From Moorella sp. Hama-1 (GTDB lineage Bacteria > Bacillota > DSM-521 > Neomoorellales > Neomoorellaceae): a DNA stretch of 64,000 nucleotides. A program made the translations under genes and the position numbers. Numbering within the stretch: the first letter of the stretch is position 1; every line of letters starts with the position of its first letter. Location of the stretch: positions 678,501 through 742,500 of the forward strand of contig NZ_AP024620.1 in the NCBI RefSeq assembly GCF_023734095.1. Direction: 5' to 3'. This document shows, piece by piece, positions 22,175 to 44,365 of the stretch. The notes under the pieces are model-generated. The model saw only the letters and a program-made list of their open reading frames with translations. It was not told where the DNA came from and made no database searches.

Positions 22175-22500
22175 CCCGCTCAGGATTAATTTCCTCCTTA
22201 TTGTTAACTTAAACCCTACGGGCTATTCGCAACTCGGCCGCCCGGAAGGTCAACCTGGGAGGAATTCTAATTTTTCCTCACCCCAGGCAGGAATCCCGAC
22301 ATCCTTCGGCGAAACTTTCTCCAAAAGCCAAAACGAAAGAGTCACCCATGGTGGCGAGCCGCACATGGCGGTATGTCGCCGCCAGCAAACGGGAGAAATG
22401 AGAGGCAGGGCTTTAATCTGAAACTGGCGTAGCCAGTTTCGACAAGCCTCCCACCTCTCACCTCCAACCTCACACATCTCAATTCGAAAGAGGGATCCCC
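22175..22500. other. Divergent intergenic region between wrbA and jetA
   Basis: About 325 bases that must hold both promoters. It contains a GC-rich block with possible hairpins at 22340-22385 (GGCGG/CCGCC pairs) and the second copy of the hairpin repeat at 22411-22475. No coding sequence is supported on either strand, and no known riboswitch was recognised. Confidence 0.5.
22411..22475 (+). repeat. Intergenic hairpin repeat, copy 2
   Basis: GAAACTGGC at 22420-22428 and GCCAGTTTC at 22432-22440 form a perfect stem with a GTA loop, followed by CTCCCACCTCTCACCTCCAA. Layout and position before a start codon match copy 1 at 8240-8310. The G-C to A-T change in the second stem pair is compensated on both sides. 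Confidence 0.65.
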
Positions 22501-24030
22501 TTGGCCGTGGAACAGGTTTCTTCCCTGCTGAAAGCTATACCGGAGACCAGCTACCTGACGGCCCAGAATGTGGGCCGTTATCGCTGTATCATGCGTTTCT
22601 TTTACCTCCAGCACCAGCGCCTGCGCTACTGGCTTCGGCCTGAGGATGTCTACCAGGGGGTCAGGGCCATGGGGTTGCTGCCGGATTATACCCTGGAGCT
22701 GTGCCAGCAGGACCTGAACCAGCTGGTAGAGTGGCAGGACCTGGTGCCCCGGCATGACGGCGGCCGGGCCTGCACCGTGGAGGAGTACCTGCGCAAGCGC
22801 TTTCGCTACCAGATGACTCCTTACGCCGTAGAAATCGAGCGCCTGGTCCTGGGCCTGGAAAAGGTCCGCGGCTACGGTGGCTCCCTGGAGCCATCCCTCT
22901 TTGAAACCATCGCGATCGCCCTGCGGGAACTCGAGGAGCGGCAGGGTGTTTTCCCGGCCGGCGAGGCCGGTAGCCTCTGGGAGGAACTCTACGGCACCTT
23001 TGTGCGCCTGACGGAAAACGCCTCCGACTATATCGCCAGCCTGCAGAGCGCCAAAGCCGAGGAACTGATGGCCACCGAGGCCTTCTTAGCCTATAAAGAC
23101 GCCGTTACCGGCTACCTGCAGAGCTTCGTCCAGGGACTGCAGCGCCATGCCTTTAAGATCGAAGGCTTAATCCCGGCCCTGGCGCCGCAGGTGGTGGCCG
23201 CCTTTCTGGACGCGGTGACGGCCGATATCGGCCGGCGGCCCCAACTGGACGAGCCCTTTGACGCTACGGCCGTCAGGGAACGCCTGGAGGCCGAATGGCA
23301 GAGCCTGGTGCGCTGGTTTGTCGGTACTCCGACGGAGACCAGTGACGTCCTTTTCCTGGAGCAGGCTACCAAGGACACCATTGCCCGCCTGGTGCGCAAC
23401 GCCCTGCAGATCCAGGAAAAGAGGCGCTCCGGCGTCAGCCGGCGCCGGGAACTGGATTACCTGGGCCGCTGGTTCTTCAGCCTGGATACTATTGAAGAAG
23501 CCCACTGCCTGGCGGCCTATGCCTTCGGCCTCTACCGCACCCGCCATTTCCAGGGTAGCGACACCGGCGAAACTGACAACCCCGATGTCTCCATGTGGGA
23601 GGTAGGCCCCAATCGCCAGCACCTACGTTCCCGCAGCCGCCGGCGGTTGCATGAGGGCGGCCCGGAACCGGTTATCTCCCGGCGGGCCAAACAGGAGGCC
23701 ATGCGGGCCGGCTACCTGGAAGAGCAGCGTCGGGAGCAGGAGATGCTCCTGGCCTTCCTGCGCCAGGGTGCGGTCACCATCTCCCGCCTGGGAGAAGTGA
23801 CCCCGGCCCTGCGGCAGCAGCTCCTTTACTGGATCAGCCGCTGCCAGGCCAGCCGCAGCCGCAGCATCCTGACCCCCGAGGGCATCCGCATCGCCCTCCA
23901 CCTCCCGCGTCACGGCCAGCGGGCCCTCCTGCGGGCGGAGGACGGTACCCTGGACATGCCCGACTACACCTTGCTTTTCACGGCTACCCGGGGGGAAGAG
24001 GAAACCCGGCTGCGGCGCGGGGCATTGTAA
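22501..24030 (+). CDS. jetA: Wadjet subunit JetA (DUF2397/TIGR02677-like kleisin)
   Basis: A 509-residue protein matching the DUF2397 family in length and position. The N-terminal ~90 residues (TAQNVGRYRCIMRFFYLQ; LRPEDVYQGVRA) form a winged helix, followed by a long helical middle. The C-terminal part contains a second winged helix (LLAFLRQGAVTISRLGEV). In Wadjet systems JetA is the MukF-like kleisin that bridges the SMC heads and joins JetB. TTG at 22501 has AAGAGGGAT 6 bases upstream. It is the first gene of the jetABCD cluster. Domain naming is from memory of the family. Confidence 0.88.
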   Translation: MAVEQVSSLLKAIPETSYLTAQNVGRYRCIMRFFYLQHQRLRYWLRPEDVYQGVRAMGLLPDYTLELCQQDLNQLVEWQDLVPRHDGGRACTVEEYLRKRFRYQMTPYAVEIERLVLGLEKVRGYGGSLEPSLFETIAIALRELEERQGVFPAGEAGSLWEELYGTFVRLTENASDYIASLQSAKAEELMATEAFLAYKDAVTGYLQSFVQGLQRHAFKIEGLIPALAPQVVAAFLDAVTADIGRRPQLDEPFDATAVRERLEAEWQSLVRWFVGTPTETSDVLFLEQATKDTIARLVRNALQIQEKRRSGVSRRRELDYLGRWFFSLDTIEEAHCLAAYAFGLYRTRHFQGSDTGETDNPDVSMWEVGPNRQHLRSRSRRRLHEGGPEPVISRRAKQEAMRAGYLEEQRREQEMLLAFLRQGAVTISRLGEVTPALRQQLLYWISRCQASRSRSILTPEGIRIALHLPRHGQRALLRAEDGTLDMPDYTLLFTATRGEEETRLRRGAL

Positions 24031-24257
24031 ACGGAAAAGAGTTCAACCCTTATACGTGAGGGAGCTAAGGGAAAGAGAAATGCAAGGTGACAAAGAAATG
24101 CTATGTATGCTTGTGGCTGCCAGTTAGCAAAGAAGATTCCATGTAGATCCCCTTTTCCGCCAAGCAGTACCGACAGATGATACAGATGGTAAGGTGCTGG
24201 TTTCAGAAAAGAGAAAGCCCGCAACCCTTCGGTCTACGGAAAGGAGCCCTTCATTTA

Positions 24258-25457
24258 ATGGAAAAGAACTCCCCCCGCTGGGAAATGGAAAAGCGGGAGT
24301 GCGCCCAGGCCCTCCTGAACCGCCCCTGGGTGACCAAAGAGGCCGACCCCGACCTCTTCCGCGCCATCCGCAGCCACTATGAGGAGTTGCGGGACTGGTT
24401 CCGGGAGCACTGCGGCTTTACCCTGCTGGTTAACCGCCACTTCGCTAAGTTGGAGAAGGTTCCCGGCCGGGCGCAGCCCTGGATGGGGTTCAGCGAGTTT
24501 AATGACCCGCGGGATTATGCTCTCTTTACCTATGGCCTGTGGTACCTTGAAGGCAAGGGGGACGGGGAACAGTTCCTATTAACGGAAATGGTGACGGCCA
24601 TCCGGGAACACCTCCTGGGCAGCGGCGTGGAGCTGGACTGGACCCTTTATGATCACCGCCTATCTATGGTTCGGGCTTTGAAACGCCTGCAGGAGATGGG
24701 CATCCTCCAGGCAGTGGACGGGGACGAGATGGAGTGGGTGCGTTCCGGGGGCGACCAGAACGTCCTCTACGAGAGTTCGCCCCTGGGGCGTTACGTCCTG
24801 CGCCGGTTTCCCCGTGACCTGACTACCTACACCCGCATGGAAGAGCTGGGGGAGGGCCTTTACGCCGATACCCCGGAAGGGCAACTGCTCCGGCGCAAGC
24901 ACCATATCTACCGCCGCCTGGTCCAGGAACCAGTGGTCTACGACCGGGAATGGAGCCCGGAGGAGCTGCACTACGTTTTGACCCAGCGTCGTTCCCTCCT
25001 GGAGCAGATGGCAAACATGCTCGGCCTAGAAGGTCGGCGCTACCGGGAGGGTTTGATTTTTTTCTACCCCGAGGCCACTGGCGAGATGCAGCTCTTTCCC
25101 ACGGCGCGGACCCTTTCCGACATCGCCCTGCTCCTGGCCGGCGAGGTCAGGAGGCTTCTAGGCCAGGAGAACAGCCACCTTTATGTAGACGAGCAGGGGC
25201 GCCTGCACCTCACCCGGGCCGACCTGGAAGGCCTGGTCCTGGGCCTGCGGGAGCGCTATAAAGAGTACTGGAGCCAGCAATACCGCCGTACTCGCAGCGG
25301 CGAACTGGCGGCAGATTTGCTGGCCCACCTGGAAGAATGGGGCCTGGCCGGGCATGGCCCTGGCGATGAAATCTGGCTGGAGCCAGCCCTGGCCCGGTGG
25401 AGCGGCAACTATGAGGACCCATACATGGGAGGCGACGCCTCTACCAGCGAACAATGA
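24258..25457 (+). CDS. jetB: Wadjet subunit JetB (DUF2398/TIGR02678-like)
   Basis: A 399-residue protein resembling DUF2398, the MukE-like winged-helix partner of the kleisin. Recognisable segments are WFREHCGFTLLVNRHFAKLE, then PRDYALFTYGLWYLEGKGDG (residues ~40-105), and a C-terminal helical region. ATG at 24258 was chosen because the conserved region starts soon after it and AAGGAG lies 11 bases upstream; 27 more residues are possible from 24177. The gap of 227 bases to jetA is unusual, since such genes normally overlap. Confidence 0.87.
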   Translation: MEKNSPRWEMEKRECAQALLNRPWVTKEADPDLFRAIRSHYEELRDWFREHCGFTLLVNRHFAKLEKVPGRAQPWMGFSEFNDPRDYALFTYGLWYLEGKGDGEQFLLTEMVTAIREHLLGSGVELDWTLYDHRLSMVRALKRLQEMGILQAVDGDEMEWVRSGGDQNVLYESSPLGRYVLRRFPRDLTTYTRMEELGEGLYADTPEGQLLRRKHHIYRRLVQEPVVYDREWSPEELHYVLTQRRSLLEQMANMLGLEGRRYREGLIFFYPEATGEMQLFPTARTLSDIALLLAGEVRRLLGQENSHLYVDEQGRLHLTRADLEGLVLGLRERYKEYWSQQYRRTRSGELAADLLAHLEEWGLAGHGPGDEIWLEPALARWSGNYEDPYMGGDASTSEQ

Positions 25458-25772
25458 AAATGCTTGTTAGGTGGGGGGCTTGAGGGTACAGGTTTCAGGC
25501 TCCGTGGTTCTCGGCGAGCAAACTTAGCGCTCAGCCTTCCTCGGCGGCGGGGGTGGCTGGACTTTATCCCTTTGAGCAATCATGACGGGGCGTGCTACTT
25601 CTCGTTCCTGAAGCCACGTTACGATCCCCATCCCGTTCACCGCCGCCTCGCTGCGGCTTCGCTGAGTTTGCTTGCACCTCGAACCAAGTCGCCCTCCGCC
25701 TGTACCCTCAAGCCTCGTAGCGGTTACTGCAATTTTTGCTACAACTCTATTTCCCGAAGGGAGTTTACGCTT
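25458..25772 (+). other. jetB-jetC spacer occupied by an inverted-repeat element
   Basis: This 315-base gap inside the Wadjet operon is mostly filled by the inverted-repeat element at 25477-25714. The frame of jetC stays open through the gap, but the encoded peptide has no resemblance to JetC and the SD site GAAGGGAG lies at 25756-25763, so the gap is taken as non-coding. Confidence 0.65.
25477..25714. repeat. MITE-like inverted repeat between jetB and jetC
   Basis: The left arm (25477-25549) read on the minus strand resembles the right arm (25641-25714) over about 73 bases. Both contain a CGCCGCC block, a CTGAG-AGTTTGCT-type core and end in TGTACCCTCAAGCC. The arms flank about 90 bases that begin GTGGCT and end AGCCAC. 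A single-arm copy is at 31699-31772, just past jetD. No transposase is encoded, so it is either a non-autonomous element or a structured intergenic repeat. Confidence 0.6.
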
Positions 25773-28700
25773 ATGTGGCGCCTGGAAAGGGCCGGCATCC
25801 TGAATTTCTGGTACTACGACGAAGCCGAGTTTGAACTGGTGGACGGCCGCCTGGTCTTGCGCGGCGCCAACGGTTCCGGTAAGTCGGTGACCATGCAGAG
25901 CTTTCTGCCCCTGGTGCTGGACGGCGACAAGCGTCCCTGGCGCCTGGACCCCTTCGGCTCCCGGGACCGGCGCATCGAGTATTACCTGCTCCTGGAGCCC
26001 GACAGCGGCATCACCGAGCGGACGGCCTACCTGTGGCTGGAGTTCTATCACCAGGAACAGGAGCGCTACCTGACGGTGGGCATCGGCCTGCGGGCGCGGC
26101 GCAACCAGAACGGCGTCAACTTCTGGGGCTTCGCCATTACCGACAACCGCCGCCCGGGGCGGAATATCTTCTTCTACAAACGGGATTTCAGCAGCGGCCG
26201 GGAGGAACATATCCCCCTGACCCGCGCCGAACTGGAAGAAGCCATCGGCGCCGGGGGCGAGGTCGTCCGGGAGCAGGGCGAGTACCAGCAGCTGGTCAAC
26301 CGCCTCCTCTTCGGCTACAGCGAGCCCCAGGCCTACCAGGAACTCCTGGACCTTCTCATTCAACTGCGCAGCCCCAAGCTATCCAAGGACTTCAAACCCT
26401 CGACGGTCTATGAAATCCTCCAGGCGGCCCTGCCGCCCCTGCTGGACGATGAATTGCGGCCCCTGGCCGAGGTCCTGGAGGAAATGGACGCCATCGGCGA
26501 TCGCCTGGCGGAACTGGAAATCCACACCCGTGAGGTCGAGGGCTTGCAGCGGAGCTACCATAACTATAATGCCCTGCGCCTCTATACAGCCTCCCGTGAG
26601 CTGCTGGCGGCCCGCCGACACCAGCAGGAGCAGCAGCATATGGTCCAGGCTGAGGCAGAGACCATCACCGGGTTGGAAGAAACCCTGGTGGCAATAGCCG
26701 GCGAGCTCCAGGCCAGGGAAGCAGAACAGCAACAGATTCAGGCTGAGGTTAAAGTCCTGTCCGAACACGAGGCCTGGCAAAAGCAGAGTGAGTTAAACCG
26801 CTTGCGCCAGGAGGCCGGGCGGCTGGAAGCGGATTGCCAGCGGGCCGCTACCCGCAGCCGGGAGTGGCGGGAACGGGCCGACCGGGCGACGAGGGAAAAG
26901 GAAGCCCTGGCTGCGGAACTGGAAACGAACCGGGCCAGCCAGTACCAGATTCTAACGGAAATGGGCCCCCGGGCCGACGAAGCCGCCTTCAGCTACCATC
27001 CCATCTATGCCGGCTCCTGGGAAAAAGCCCCGCCGCTAACCGAACCCTCCTGGCAGTCGTGGCTGGCCGACCTCCGCCAGCAGGAGGAGCACCTGGGCCG
27101 GGCCCTGGAACTCGCCCGGCGCCTTACCCAGCTGGGGGAACGCCGCCGCCTGGCCGAGGTGGAGTTGAGCCGGGCCCGGGAGGAACGTGACGGCTGCGAG
27201 GCTGCCGAACACCGGGCGGAAGCCGCCTGCGCCGCCGCCCAGGAAGCCCTCCAGGAGAGCATCTTTGCCTGGCGGCGGCAGCTTCAGGTCCTTCCCCTCA
27301 CGGAGAATACCCTGCAAGCCGTCCTGGCGGCTTTAACCCGGTATCCGGAGGTCGACTATGAAGACTGCCGGGCGCCGGTCCAGGATAGTTACCATCAGGC
27401 CCGGGAGGCTCTGATGGCCCGCCGGGTGGAGTGGCAGCGCCAATTGCAGGAACACCAGGCGCAAAAGGAGGCCCTGGTGGCCGAATTAAAGGAGTGGCAA
27501 ACCCGGAAGGAACCCCAGCCTCCGGCCGGGGAGGCACGCCAGCGGGCACGCCAGCGCCGCGGCAACGGCAGCGGGGCGCCCCTTTACGCGGCCTGCGAAT
27601 TCCGGCCTGAAGTGGAACCGGCCCTCCAGGCGCGACTGGAGGCCACCCTGGAGGCCGCCGGTCTCCTTGACGCCTGGCTGAGCCCCGGTGGCCTGATTGG
27701 CGTGGCTGAGGACGAGGAAGAGGTCTGGCTGGAAGCCGCTCCCCTGGCCCTGGGTCCCACCCTGGCCGATTTCCTCTACCCGACGCCCCCGACTGGTAGC
27801 GGCCTGACGGAGGACCAGGTGGCCGCCGTCCTGGCGACCATTGCCGTCGATACGGACTACGCGGCCGGAGGGGCAGTTCTTCCAGAAACCGGTCGCTTCC
27901 AGCTGGGTCCCCTGGCCGGCCAGGTCCCGGGTAAGCCCCGGGCGGAATACATCGGCCTGGAAACCCGGCGCCAGACCCGCCTGGCGGCCATCGCCCGCCT
28001 GGAAGGGTTAATCCAGGAGGAAGAAGAGGTACTGGCCCGCTGCCGGGAGGAACTCCGGCGCCTGGAAGAAGAAGAGACTACCCTGCGGCAGGAACTGGCG
28101 GCCTTCCCCGGCGGGGAGGAACTGCGTCACGCCTGGCAGCAATGGGAGAAGGCTCACCTGGCCCTGGAGCAGGCCGCAGCCGTAGTGGCGAGTTGCAGCA
28201 CCCGGCTGGGGGAGATCGCCCGGGAGCAGCAGCAGGTAACGGCCGATCTGCACCAGCTACTGGCCGGTTCTCCCCTGCCGCCGCGGGAGGCCGGCCTGGA
28301 GGCAGCCATGGCCGCTTTGCGCCATTACCGGGAATTGGTCCTGGAATTAAAGGCCGCCTGGCAGCAGGGTCAGAGTTTACTGGCCCGGGCGGAGCGAGCG
28401 ACCAGCGACCTGGAAGAAGCCCGGGCCCGCCTCGCCCGGGAGGAACAGGAAGAAGCAAGTTTACGCGCCCGCCTGGCCGAGTATCAGGCCCAGGTGGCCG
28501 CAGTGGAGAAAATCCTGGCCGACATGGGCCTGGCTGATATTGACCGGCGTCTGAAAGAATTGACCGCCCACCTGGAAGAGTTGAACCGGACCCTTAAATC
28601 CCTGACGGAGAAGCACCAACAGCATGATAAGGACCTGGCCGTAGCCCGGACGCGGCTGGAGGGCTTGACGTCCGAACTGGACCGGCGCCGGGAGGCTACC

Positions 28701-29957
28701 CGGGCAGCCCGGCAAAACTGGGACGACGAGTGGCAGCGCCGGTTGCTAGCTGAATGGGAGGAAGTGGCCGACCCGGCCAGCGACGCCGAACTGGAACAAG
28801 TCCTACAGCAAATCGTACGGCGTTACCGGGAACGCTGGGACAAGGCCAACCTGCAGGCGGTTACCAACAGCCTGATGGATGCCTTCCACAGCGCCCGTCA
28901 GGCCCTCCTGGATTACGTGCCGGAATTACTCAGCGACGAGGAGAGCGAGCGGTTGCTGGTGGTCTTCTGTCGCGACCGGGACCATCCCCTGACTCCGGCC
29001 CTGCTCTTAAAAGAGCTGGAACAGGCCCGGGCCGAGCAGCAGCTCCTTTTAAGCCAGAAAGACCGTGAACTCTACGAGGAGATCCTCTTCCACGACGTGG
29101 GCAAGACCATCAGCCAGAAGATTAACCGCGCCGAGCGCTGGGTGCGGGAGATGAACCGGCTCATGCAGGCGCGCCAGACCTCCAGCGGCCTGCGCCTGTC
29201 CTTAAAATGGGAGCCGCGCCCGGCTCAGAACGAGCGGGAGATGGATACGGCGGAACTAATAAAGCTGCTGCGCTTCGACCGTCACCTGTTGCGGGACGAG
29301 CAGATTGACCGGGTCATTGAACACTTTCGCTCCAGGATTAACTGGGCCCGCCAGGAGGCGGAGAGCCAGGATACCCTGCGCCAGCGGATCAAGCAGGTCC
29401 TGGATTACCGGGAGTGGTTCCGGTTTACCCTGTACTACGAAAAGGGCGACCAGCCGCGGCGGGAGTTGACGGACAGCCGCTTCAACGTCCTGAGCGGCGG
29501 TGAAAAGGCCATGGCTATGTACATCCCCCTCTTTGCCGCCACCTATTCCCGCTATAGTGACGCCCGGGCCGACGCCCCGCGGCTGATCTCCCTGGACGAG
29601 GCCTTTGCCGGGGTGGATGAAGAAAACCTCCAGGATATGTTCGGCCTCCTGACGGAAATGGGCTTTAACTATATGATGACCAGCCAGGTCCTCTGGGGGT
29701 GCTATGCCAGCGTACCCGGCCTGGCTATCTACGAACTCTACCGGCCCCGGGGCGCCACCTGCGTCACCATCTTTCACTACCGCTGGGACGGTTACCAGCG
29801 GCACCTGGTCGAAAAGGGGAACGGCGAGGACGCCGGCGCTGACCTCCAGGAGGCCCTCGCCGAGGTGGCCGCCGGGGAAGATAGCGATAGTACCGGTACC
29901 GCCGCCGGCGCCAAGGCTGTGGTTTTTGGTAGCGTCCCTGGTAGCGATTTTAATTGA
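25773..29957 (+). CDS. jetC: Wadjet SMC ATPase JetC (TIGR02680-like, MukB-related)
   Basis: A 1394-residue SMC-like protein. Walker A GANGSGKS is at residues 31-38. Long coiled coils rich in E, R, Q and L cover roughly residues 210-620 and 740-1000, broken by a hinge-like region with less coiled-coil character. The C-terminal head has the signature LSGGEKAMAM near residue 1240 and the Walker B LISLDEAFAGVDEENL near 1270. JetC extrudes DNA loops and with JetD recognises small circular plasmids. The ATG at 25773 with GAAGGGAG upstream gives a correct N-terminus (MWRLERAGILNFWYYDEAEF). Confidence 0.93.
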   Translation: MWRLERAGILNFWYYDEAEFELVDGRLVLRGANGSGKSVTMQSFLPLVLDGDKRPWRLDPFGSRDRRIEYYLLLEPDSGITERTAYLWLEFYHQEQERYLTVGIGLRARRNQNGVNFWGFAITDNRRPGRNIFFYKRDFSSGREEHIPLTRAELEEAIGAGGEVVREQGEYQQLVNRLLFGYSEPQAYQELLDLLIQLRSPKLSKDFKPSTVYEILQAALPPLLDDELRPLAEVLEEMDAIGDRLAELEIHTREVEGLQRSYHNYNALRLYTASRELLAARRHQQEQQHMVQAEAETITGLEETLVAIAGELQAREAEQQQIQAEVKVLSEHEAWQKQSELNRLRQEAGRLEADCQRAATRSREWRERADRATREKEALAAELETNRASQYQILTEMGPRADEAAFSYHPIYAGSWEKAPPLTEPSWQSWLADLRQQEEHLGRALELARRLTQLGERRRLAEVELSRAREERDGCEAAEHRAEAACAAAQEALQESIFAWRRQLQVLPLTENTLQAVLAALTRYPEVDYEDCRAPVQDSYHQAREALMARRVEWQRQLQEHQAQKEALVAELKEWQTRKEPQPPAGEARQRARQRRGNGSGAPLYAACEFRPEVEPALQARLEATLEAAGLLDAWLSPGGLIGVAEDEEEVWLEAAPLALGPTLADFLYPTPPTGSGLTEDQVAAVLATIAVDTDYAAGGAVLPETGRFQLGPLAGQVPGKPRAEYIGLETRRQTRLAAIARLEGLIQEEEEVLARCREELRRLEEEETTLRQELAAFPGGEELRHAWQQWEKAHLALEQAAAVVASCSTRLGEIAREQQQVTADLHQLLAGSPLPPREAGLEAAMAALRHYRELVLELKAAWQQGQSLLARAERATSDLEEARARLAREEQEEASLRARLAEYQAQVAAVEKILADMGLADIDRRLKELTAHLEELNRTLKSLTEKHQQHDKDLAVARTRLEGLTSELDRRREATRAARQNWDDEWQRRLLAEWEEVADPASDAELEQVLQQIVRRYRERWDKANLQAVTNSLMDAFHSARQALLDYVPELLSDEESERLLVVFCRDRDHPLTPALLLKELEQARAEQQLLLSQKDRELYEEILFHDVGKTISQKINRAERWVREMNRLMQARQTSSGLRLSLKWEPRPAQNEREMDTAELIKLLRFDRHLLRDEQIDRVIEHFRSRINWARQEAESQDTLRQRIKQVLDYREWFRFTLYYEKGDQPRRELTDSRFNVLSGGEKAMAMYIPLFAATYSRYSDARADAPRLISLDEAFAGVDEENLQDMFGLLTEMGFNYMMTSQVLWGCYASVPGLAIYELYRPRGATCVTIFHYRWDGYQRHLVEKGNGEDAGADLQEALAEVAAGEDSDSTGTAAGAKAVVFGSVPGSDFN

Positions 29958-30086
29958 GAGACTCAGATAGCTGTCCCATGCATCGGCACCCCACTTAGCG
30001 TCGGGGTTGTAGCCTATCTATTTGATTATGAAAGTAATTGAGCCTGAGCTAAAAATAGCACCAGGGGATTGGTCCCTGGAGGTTAT

Positions 30087-31445
30087 ATGATAGATCGTGA
30101 AAATGAAATGGCCACCAAAGCAATTCAAGCTGTAAATGAAAGCCAGACGCTGGAGCCTTCTGGGAGAAAGGCCCCTGCAGATCTGCTTGCTTACCTGCAG
30201 CAACCGGGGTTCAAGCGCTTCTGGGACGCAGTACGGGCCAGGTATATCGCCCTGGGCCGGGTGGGGGGCCGCATCCAGCTGACCGACCTGACTCCTGCGG
30301 AACAGGAAACCCTGGGGGGCTTTCTGGGACGGGACCTAGCCGGCCACGACCGCCTTCGGGTAAGTCTGGCCACGATTGAAGCCGTCCTCCTGGCCAGCCG
30401 CTGGCAGGTTGACCTGCCCGCCTGTTTGGCAGCCTATTACGGCACTACCATCAACACCCGGCCGGCGATGACCGCCGCCCGGGAGCGGGCCTGGGAGGAT
30501 TTTTGTTCCCGGGCCATGGCCCTGGCCGGGAAGGAGGTCAGCCGGCGGTGGCTGGCCGGCCTATTGAACAGCCAGACCGCCGGTTACCGCACCCTGGTCG
30601 GCCTTTACCAGGAGGACGCGGGGAAGACCCTGTCCCTGCTGGCCACCTGTTGCCGGGCCCTGGAGGAAATTGCCCAGGGCCTGCCTAACCAACCTGTGCC
30701 TGTCTTTGCGGCCCGGCTGACGGGCGACCCCCATGCCCTGGACCAGGACCAGCCCCTGGGCCGGCTTTTCTGGACCGCCCTCCTGTTCTTCCTGGAAGTA
30801 CAGGATCTTGACGGCAGCGCCGGGCAGCGGCGTGAGCTCTTACGGCAGGTAGGCCTCCAGGATGACGACCTCTCCTCCAACGTCCTGGTGGCGGGCTTGA
30901 GGGTCAACGCCGGGGACCCCCTGGCCCCCCTCCTGGCGGCGGCCGGCAATAACCCCCTTATTTTACCGCTACGCTACTTGAACCGGCCGGTGGTCTGGAA
31001 ACCTGGCCCCGTCTATGTTATGGAAAACCCGGCGGTCTTCAGCGTTCTGCTGGCGGCTGCTGGCCCGGACTGGGCGCCGGCCCTGGTCTGCCCGGCGGGG
31101 CAGCCCAGCGTGGCTGCCTGGACCCTTTTGGACCAGCTGGTGGCCGCCGGCTGCCGGCTTTATTATAGCGGCGATTTCGACCCGGAGGGTCTGGGCATTG
31201 GCCTGGCCTGCCAGCGCCGATACGGGGTCGCTTTTAACCCCTGGTTTTTTGATACGGCGGCCTACCGCCTGGCTCCACGGGGGCTTCCCCTGACAGCCCG
31301 GCAGCGCCGTCAACTTTCCGGTATGGAAATCCCCTGGGACAAAGGACTGGTGGCGACCATGCTGGAACGGGGCCTGGCCGTTTACCAGGAGACCCTGGTT
31401 CCGGCTATGGTCAACTTCATGAACCGGGGCCCGGAACAGCAGTAG
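30087..31445 (+). CDS. jetD: Wadjet nuclease subunit JetD (DUF2399/TIGR02679-like, TOPRIM)
   Basis: A 452-residue protein. The C-terminal third contains VYVMENPAVFSVLL and YYSGDFDPEGLGIGLA (near residue 361), which are the Glu and the DxD elements of a TOPRIM fold like that of topoisomerase VI A subunits. The N-terminal part is helical and DNA-binding-like. JetD cuts plasmids trapped by the SMC complex. The ATG at 30087 follows GGAGGT closely; a TTG at 30069 is in frame. The 129-base gap from jetC is longer than usual. The set matches the DUF2397-2398-SMC-2399 type, which I take as type II Wadjet (type label from memory). Confidence 0.9.
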   Translation: MIDRENEMATKAIQAVNESQTLEPSGRKAPADLLAYLQQPGFKRFWDAVRARYIALGRVGGRIQLTDLTPAEQETLGGFLGRDLAGHDRLRVSLATIEAVLLASRWQVDLPACLAAYYGTTINTRPAMTAARERAWEDFCSRAMALAGKEVSRRWLAGLLNSQTAGYRTLVGLYQEDAGKTLSLLATCCRALEEIAQGLPNQPVPVFAARLTGDPHALDQDQPLGRLFWTALLFFLEVQDLDGSAGQRRELLRQVGLQDDDLSSNVLVAGLRVNAGDPLAPLLAAAGNNPLILPLRYLNRPVVWKPGPVYVMENPAVFSVLLAAAGPDWAPALVCPAGQPSVAAWTLLDQLVAAGCRLYYSGDFDPEGLGIGLACQRRYGVAFNPWFFDTAAYRLAPRGLPLTARQRRQLSGMEIPWDKGLVATMLERGLAVYQETLVPAMVNFMNRGPEQQ

Positions 31446-31645: not shown

Positions 31646-31698
31646 TCACGCCCCCTTTCGATGGTCTGTCCATAAACTCCCCCGAAAATTAGCTTCAC

Positions 31699-31772
31699 CG
31701 CCGCCTCCCTGCGGTTTCGCTGAGTTTGCTAACGCCTCGAACCAAGTCACCCTTCGCCTTTAACCTCCAGCC
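31699..31772 (+). repeat. Single-arm copy of the jetB-jetC inverted repeat
   Basis: The stretch shares CGCCGCCTC, CTGCGG, TTCGCTGAGTTTGCT, CCTCGAACCAAGTC and an AGCC end with 25641-25714, at roughly 80-85 per cent identity by eye. The matching left arm is absent. It lies about 250 bases after jetD. Confidence 0.6.
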
Positions 31773-40994: not shown

Positions 40995-41069
40995 TCCTCG
41001 GTAGCTCAATGGTAGAGCGCCCGGCTGTTAACCGGGTGGTTGCAGGTTCGAGCCCTGCCCGGGGAGCCA
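40995..41069 (+). tRNA. tRNA-Asn (GTT)
   Basis: A 75-base cloverleaf with acceptor TCCTCGG/CCGGGGA, the D-arm TAGCTCAATGGTAGAGC, an anticodon arm centred on CTGTTAA (anticodon GTT), the T-arm GGTTCGAGCC and an encoded CCA end. It is 26 bases... from position 40995, directly behind a strong promoter, and 4 bases before the next tRNA. Confidence 0.95.
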
Positions 41070-41073
41070 GAAA

Positions 41074-41148
41074 GGGCCCATAGCTCAACGGTAGAGCTGC
41101 CGGCTCATAACCGGTTGGTTCCTGGTTCGAATCCGGGTGGGCCCACCA
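41074..41148 (+). tRNA. tRNA with CAT anticodon (Met elongator, or Ile2)
   Basis: A 75-base cloverleaf with acceptor GGGCCCA/TGGGCCC, anticodon loop CTCATAA, T-arm GGTTCGAAT and an encoded CCA. CAT can be elongator methionine or, after lysidine modification, the minor isoleucine tRNA. The GC-rich acceptor without the initiator mismatch excludes the initiator. Sequence alone does not settle Met versus Ile2. Confidence 0.9.
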
Positions 41149-43905: not shown

Positions 43906-44365
43906 CTTTTGAGTAAACCGGATGGTCGCGGGCGTAAAGGCGCGTTTGGCGCCTCAGCGCCTGAGGAAAGTCCGAGCTCCGCAGGGCAGGGTGCTGGATA
44001 ACGTCCAGTGGAGGCGACTCCAAGGATAGTGCCACAGAAACAGACCGCCCAGCACTCAACCTGACGAGTGAAAAAGTCCTATCTACCAACTGGCTCCTAA
44101 TCGGGATCAGGCAGGGGTTCCTGGTAGATGAAACTTCACCTGTCAGGTTGAGTGCTGGGCAAGGGTGGAAAGGCGAGGTAAGAGCTCACCAGCGGTTAGG
44201 CGACTAACCGGCTCGGTAAACCCCACCTGGAGCAAGACCGAATAGGGGGACAAGAGGGGTGGCCCGCCCCGTCCCCGGGTAAGGTCGCTGGAGGCGTCAG
44301 GCAACTGGCGTCCAAGATAGATGACCATCTAAGACAGAACTCGGCTTACAGGTTTGCTCAAAAGA
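43906..44365 (+). ncRNA. rnpB: RNase P RNA (ancestral type A)
   Basis: The universally conserved core is present: GAGGAAAGTCCGAGCTCC near 43970 (P4 5' strand) and ACAGAACTCGGCTTACAG near 44334 (P4 3' strand), with AGAGCTCACCAGCGG and GGTAAACCCCACC between. P1 pairs CTTTTGAGTAAACC (43906-43919) with GGTTTGCTCAAAAG (44352-44365), with one G-U. The RNA is the catalytic part of RNase P, which trims tRNA 5' ends. Its 3' part is supplied by the attL core of the adjoining island, so the gene was rebuilt on integration. Confidence 0.96.

Follow-up and report, generated by a model that had tools for sequence, protein, structure and literature searches.

Type II Wadjet systems are already known, and the operon described here is an ordinary member of that group. 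The closest known kinds of repeat to the one that lies within it are Chunjie, BOX/RUP, and Correia/ERIC. Chunjie is a MITE from Geobacter uraniireducens: it is 235 bp long, it is present in 38 copies plus 57 partial ones, and it is found inserted in an operon (as cited in PMC10969869). Correia elements are cleaved by RNase III, and cleavage of transcripts is also described for ERIC elements (PMC10969869 and PMC3049150).

The window is a stretch of 64,000 nucleotides from Moorella sp. Hama-1, and it is part of a single-contig genome of 3.32 Mb. Within the window, jetA, jetB, jetC, and jetD lie on a single strand in the order of type II systems. The top matches of the four proteins are the type II families of PADLOC, JetA2 to JetD2 (E = 0 to 2e-102), and all four also match the corresponding families in Pfam/NCBIfam. 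The genes and the first spacer are:

22501 to 24030, plus strand: jetA, kleisin (DUF2397), TTG start; Pfam DUF2397 E = 5e-152, PADLOC JetA2 E = 4e-181
24031 to 24257, no strand assigned: jetA-jetB spacer, 227 bp, unique in the genome (only itself was found), origin unexplained
24258 to 25457, plus strand: jetB, KITE (DUF2398), ATG start; PADLOC JetB2 E = 5e-133
25773 to 29957, plus strand: jetC, SMC; PADLOC JetC2 E = 0, beginning at the ATG at 25773
30087 to 31445, plus strand: jetD, Toprim nuclease (DUF3323/DUF2399), ATG start; PADLOC JetD2 E = 2e-102

JetC is also similar to the JetC of PDB entry 9qe0 (E = 6e-205), and a comparison of the JetD sequence to solved structures gave no match. JetC contains the ATPase motifs (Walker A GANGSGKS, signature LSGGEK, and Walker B LISLDEA), and JetD contains the Toprim motif GDFDPEG. 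The initial annotation had called this a Wadjet system with all key motifs intact, and we agree: judging by its genes, this is apparently an intact, ordinary type II Wadjet anti-plasmid operon. We considered whether the open frame at 25464-25772 could be an N-terminal extension of JetC. We rejected this because the profiles begin at residue 105 of that frame, beside the ATG at 25773, and because the frame crosses the repeat that is described below. Elsewhere in the window there is a gene for class A RNase P RNA (43910-44364) and two neighboring tRNA genes (40995-41145).

The gene coordinates give gaps of 227 bp (jetA-jetB), 315 bp (jetB-jetC), and 129 bp (jetC-jetD), as first annotated. It had also been stated that such genes usually overlap or lie close, and that the operon should be compared to its homologs. 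In nine more distant Wadjet loci (L023-L030 and L034, from Desulfotruncus, Desulfocucumis, Dethiobacter, and others), the jetB-jetC gap is just -8 to +8 bp, and jetA and jetB overlap or are less than 100 bp apart. Since in all nine of these loci jetB and jetC either overlap or are at most 8 bp apart, the spacing in Moorella sp. Hama-1 is unusual. Similarly, jetC and jetD overlap or nearly so in two relatives, versus 129 bp here. In the closest Wadjet relative, Moorella sp. UBA4076 (L021), the jetB-jetC gap is 58 bp and lacks the core of the repeat, and the jetA-jetB gap (~420 bp) contains pieces of a second family of repeats.

In Moorella, the jet locus has a patchy distribution and shows decay: jetD is cut short in UBA4076, a remnant of a jetA-jetC fusion is found in another genome (L041 in G009), and jetA is broken in a third (L126 in G003). 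One incomplete metagenome-assembled genome (G008) has two different contigs with jetC and jetD (L022 and L031). Their jetC genes are 88% and 96-97% identical to the window's jetC, and these contigs are perhaps from two strains that were binned together.

The inverted repeat that had been noticed in the jetB-jetC gap is there, with arms at 25477-25510 and 25681-25714. It forms the core of a larger repeat, which we will call the first family, and a truncated copy of the core lies downstream of jetD:

25424 to 25471, minus strand: right-arm module of the first family (HMM E = 6e-7), whose identity is clear from ~25446, CCAGCGAACAATGAAAATG
25475 to 25714, plus strand: near-palindromic core of the first family, inverted relative to its arms (HMM E = 6e-77 on the plus strand and 5e-4 on the minus strand)
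25721 to 25763, minus strand: degenerate left-arm module (HMM match at 25721-25759, E = 9e-4 in the stretch searched)
31694 to 31771, plus strand: truncated core downstream of jetD (model positions 164-241; HMM E = 2e-17)

Upstream of ~25446, the right-arm module is shared with the coding sequence of jetB. In the sense of the coding strand, the degenerate left arm ends in GAAGGGAG, which is the Shine-Dalgarno sequence (SD) of jetC. A 253-nt stretch across the hairpin folds to -128.9 kcal/mol (z = -7.0 against dinucleotide shuffles), so its stability is far beyond chance.

This hairpin is one of many. At full length, the core recurs at 80-92% identity in at least 40 other places of the genome (the best 40 candidates were scored), and a conserved 23-mer from the core has 84 copies in the genome, while its reversed control has none. 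The same 23-mer has 0-15 copies in each of ten other Moorella genomes. Most copies of the repeat comprise a core of ~242 bp, a left arm of ~52 bp, and a right arm of ~64 bp. With its arms, the unit is ~370 bp, non-coding, and dispersed in at least 84 copies, and it is shorter than the 500 bp that bounds MITEs. Some copies are stacked or truncated. To measure placement, we used the fetched copies and 20 stretches of 20 kb at even intervals along the genome. All 58 copies examined, from this genome and its relatives, are intergenic, and 53 of the 58 are flanked by co-directional genes; 44 of these 53 share a single main orientation. Along the mRNA, the right arm comes first, followed by the core, the left arm, CTATTTTC-GGAGGAG, and the start codon. 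In other words, the 3' arm usually terminates in an SD right before a start codon, and for 30 of the 44 copies the distance from that codon to the edge of the core is 58-82 nt. (Genes were called with a simple caller, so single gene starts could be wrong.) Judging from these copies, the repeat in the jetB-jetC spacer probably belongs to a family of small, non-autonomous, interspersed repeats found in Moorella.

By inspection, the outer ends of the first-family repeat (CCCCTCATGGGG.. and ..CTATTTTC) show no complementarity, so it has no terminal inverted repeats there, and the palindromy is confined to the inner core. Because terminal inverted repeats are a defining feature of MITEs, we call the repeat MITE-like. 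Repeats that target the SD and lack terminal inverted repeats at their outer ends might be moved by something other than a standard DDE transposase. The genome had no match to the Y1 transposase family (PF01797), which was detected in control genomes, so we rejected mobilization of the RAYT/IS200 type and membership in the REP/BIME class. The genome does contain an intact group II intron, as well as a broken gene for a reverse transcriptase, but no module of the repeat lies within these loci, which argues against a group II intron as its source. Our searches of the Y1 and reverse transcriptase families gave no partner that might mobilize the repeat.

A second family of repeats is found upstream of jetA:

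22334 to 22341, plus strand: 5' copy of the direct repeat CGAAAGAG, identical to 22485-22492, a presumed target-site duplication
22342 to 22492, plus strand: second-family repeat upstream of jetA, ~140 bp (HMM match at 22356-22492, E = 2e-41)

This copy is flanked by CGAAAGAG as a perfect 8-bp direct repeat, and the 3' copy of CGAAAGAG (22485-22492), which the element includes, is the SD of jetA. At the same place, the genome G009 has GAAAGAG and no second-family repeat. We scored ~40 copies of this family in the genome, out of 115 candidates at first look. The second family shares with the first the CCCCTCATG 5' end and the SD-bearing 3' end, and its copies often lie directly behind a first-family arm (genome-wide, L104-L123). 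One half of the chromosome has second-family copies mostly on the plus strand and the other half mostly on the minus strand, and this bias probably follows gene orientation and the direction of replication.

Both families show signs of insertion at SDs. Between this genome and its relatives, we found filled and empty orthologous sites in both directions. For instance, where a relative has ..CCCTGACTAAAAGGAGGTACAGAGCTCTTATG, this genome has a composite of ~490 bp with AGGAGG at either side. As with the target-site duplications of MITEs, the matching between the two ends of a copy exceeds that of shuffled ends: it is 7.2 versus 5.9 for the first family (0 of 2000 shuffles) and 7.66 versus 6.96 for the second (4 of 1000 shuffles), with shuffles that control only partly for the shared ancestry of the copies. 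Rare variants are identical at both ends, namely CTCCTACG in L006, CTCCTTT in L017, and CTCCCCCG in L020 for the first family and TTCGCAGGAG in L118 for the second. The repeats sit at a gene's SD and seem to duplicate ~8 bp of it. Since an SD is then left beside the start codon, the downstream gene would still be translatable. We give roughly even chances to the broader proposal that these are two non-autonomous mobile families of Moorella that target the SD in one orientation, duplicate ~8 bp, and rebuild the downstream ribosome-binding site.

The placement of the first family before start codons, in one main orientation, is also what might be seen if it were a family of cis-acting regulatory RNAs (5' leader elements) whose position reflects function instead of mobility. 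Covariation in the hairpin fits with this: across 52 copies, 22 pairs of the core have changes on both sides, versus 10.9 expected from shuffles and 6-15 in slid controls, which supports a conserved hairpin. (We counted pairs on the window's own hairpin because the RNAalifold consensus was less regular than the single-sequence structure.) But a palindrome can also acquire covariation by copying between its own arms, and no covariance model in Rfam matched the repeat at the gathering score, so it does not belong to a known Rfam family. The differences in presence or absence at orthologous sites, the range within the genus from 84 copies to 0-15, the direct repeats at the ends, and the stacked and truncated copies also argue for mobility, and we consider an immobile regulatory RNA unlikely.

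Returning to jetB-jetC, comparison to the distant relatives indicates that the repeat occupies the very place where their jetB and jetC overlap. We infer that a repeat with a 242-bp core lodged at such an overlap and so separated the two genes. JetB ends in ..GGDASTSEQ-stop here and mostly in ..GGDE-stop in the nine relatives, with divergence directly after GGD. Past GGD, the frame of jetB enters sequence that matches the arm, ACCAGCGAACAATGA, which is read as T-S-E-Q-stop. From these alignments, the new stop codon and C-terminus of jetB and the SD left for jetC all appear to derive from the repeat. Going by its extent, the repeat accounts for most of the 315-bp gap, in line with the shorter gap of UBA4076, which lacks the core. 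As the explanation of the whole, it is likely that a genus-specific repeat widened the jetB-jetC gap of an ordinary type II Wadjet operon. There are caveats: the arms of this copy are degenerate, the left-arm match is weak, and this copy has no clear direct repeat at its ends. Also, given the arm-like sequence that remains in it, the spacer of UBA4076 may be a deletion derivative rather than an empty site. Nor does the repeat account for the 227-bp and 129-bp gaps. We rejected a repeat origin for the jetA-jetB gap, whose sequence is unique in the genome, and no repeat model matched the jetC-jetD gap (29958-30086).

The core is inverted relative to the arms in three copies (the window, L004, and L046), as if it were able to flip within them. 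This raises another scenario, that the core is a separate palindromic MITE, with its own 34-nt inverted ends, that entered, in one orientation or the other, a pre-existing repeat made of arms alone. That older repeat would then be the source of the arms and of the preference for SDs. The occurrence of arms beside the second family and the coreless, arm-like spacer of UBA4076 also fit. But the sole arm-only candidate that we viewed closely (L096) is a deletion derivative, since ~20 nt from the start of the core remain in it, and the alignment has no direct repeat at the borders of the core. We view a separate MITE as possible but rather unlikely.

The initial annotation proposed that internal promoters or RNA processing at the gaps set the ratios of the Jet subunits. 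A transcript through the jetB-jetC spacer would carry a very stable hairpin, and a long mRNA hairpin may be cut by RNase III. Because RNase III cuts Correia elements and transcripts with ERIC elements are cleaved, processing between jetB and jetC is possible, and by this analogy we consider it plausible. Any such processing would be a side effect at every copy of the repeat, in dozens of operons, and not specific to Wadjet; a Wadjet-specific regulatory role for the repeat is improbable. The stronger proposal, that the gaps and the hairpin are devices selected to set the ratios, draws on the same hairpin and on the cleavage of hairpin repeats in other transcripts (Correia and ERIC; PMC10969869 and PMC3049150). 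Against it, the genome has at least 84 such hairpins, this one included, with dozens between unrelated gene pairs, and the core is missing from the closest Wadjet relative. Also, predictions for the coding strand of the jet gaps gave neither a sigma-70-like promoter nor an intrinsic terminator. We consider it very improbable. The Wadjet system, its odd spacing, and the inverted repeat stand, and the reading of the gaps as ratio-setting devices is not supported. For Wadjet, the unusual distance between jetB and jetC most likely arose by accident from local repeats instead of by regulatory design.

If the targeting of SDs is correct, then operons could be colonized by these repeats without their genes being silenced; copies could pile up at one site, and genes that overlap could be split. 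A repeat that rebuilds the SD would explain how at least 80 hairpin insertions inside operons are tolerated, and it would be a concrete route to the separation of overlapping genes and to new C-termini. In Moorella, which is of interest to industry as an acetogen, such repeats could affect operon expression and genetic tools. In the literature that we searched, whose coverage was partial, we found no description of the Moorella repeat or of a placement that targets and rebuilds the SD.

Compared to other type II Wadjet systems, this locus has the same gene order, the same four protein families, and the same ATPase and Toprim motifs, but its genes are 129-315 bp apart instead of overlapping or adjacent. 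As for the repeat, it resembles Chunjie, by description only, in its size, copy number, intergenic placement, and insertion within an operon; it differs in lacking terminal inverted repeats at its outer ends and in being inserted at SDs. Like the BOX and RUP elements of Streptococcus pneumoniae, it is modular, small, structured, intergenic, and non-coding, with direct repeats upon insertion, but BOX and RUP have terminal inverted repeats, and the portion of PMC3049150 that was accessible did not describe a placement that rebuilds the SD. Correia and ERIC are likewise hairpin repeats within transcripts, for which cleavage by RNases is documented (PMC10969869 and PMC3049150), but they are found in other hosts.
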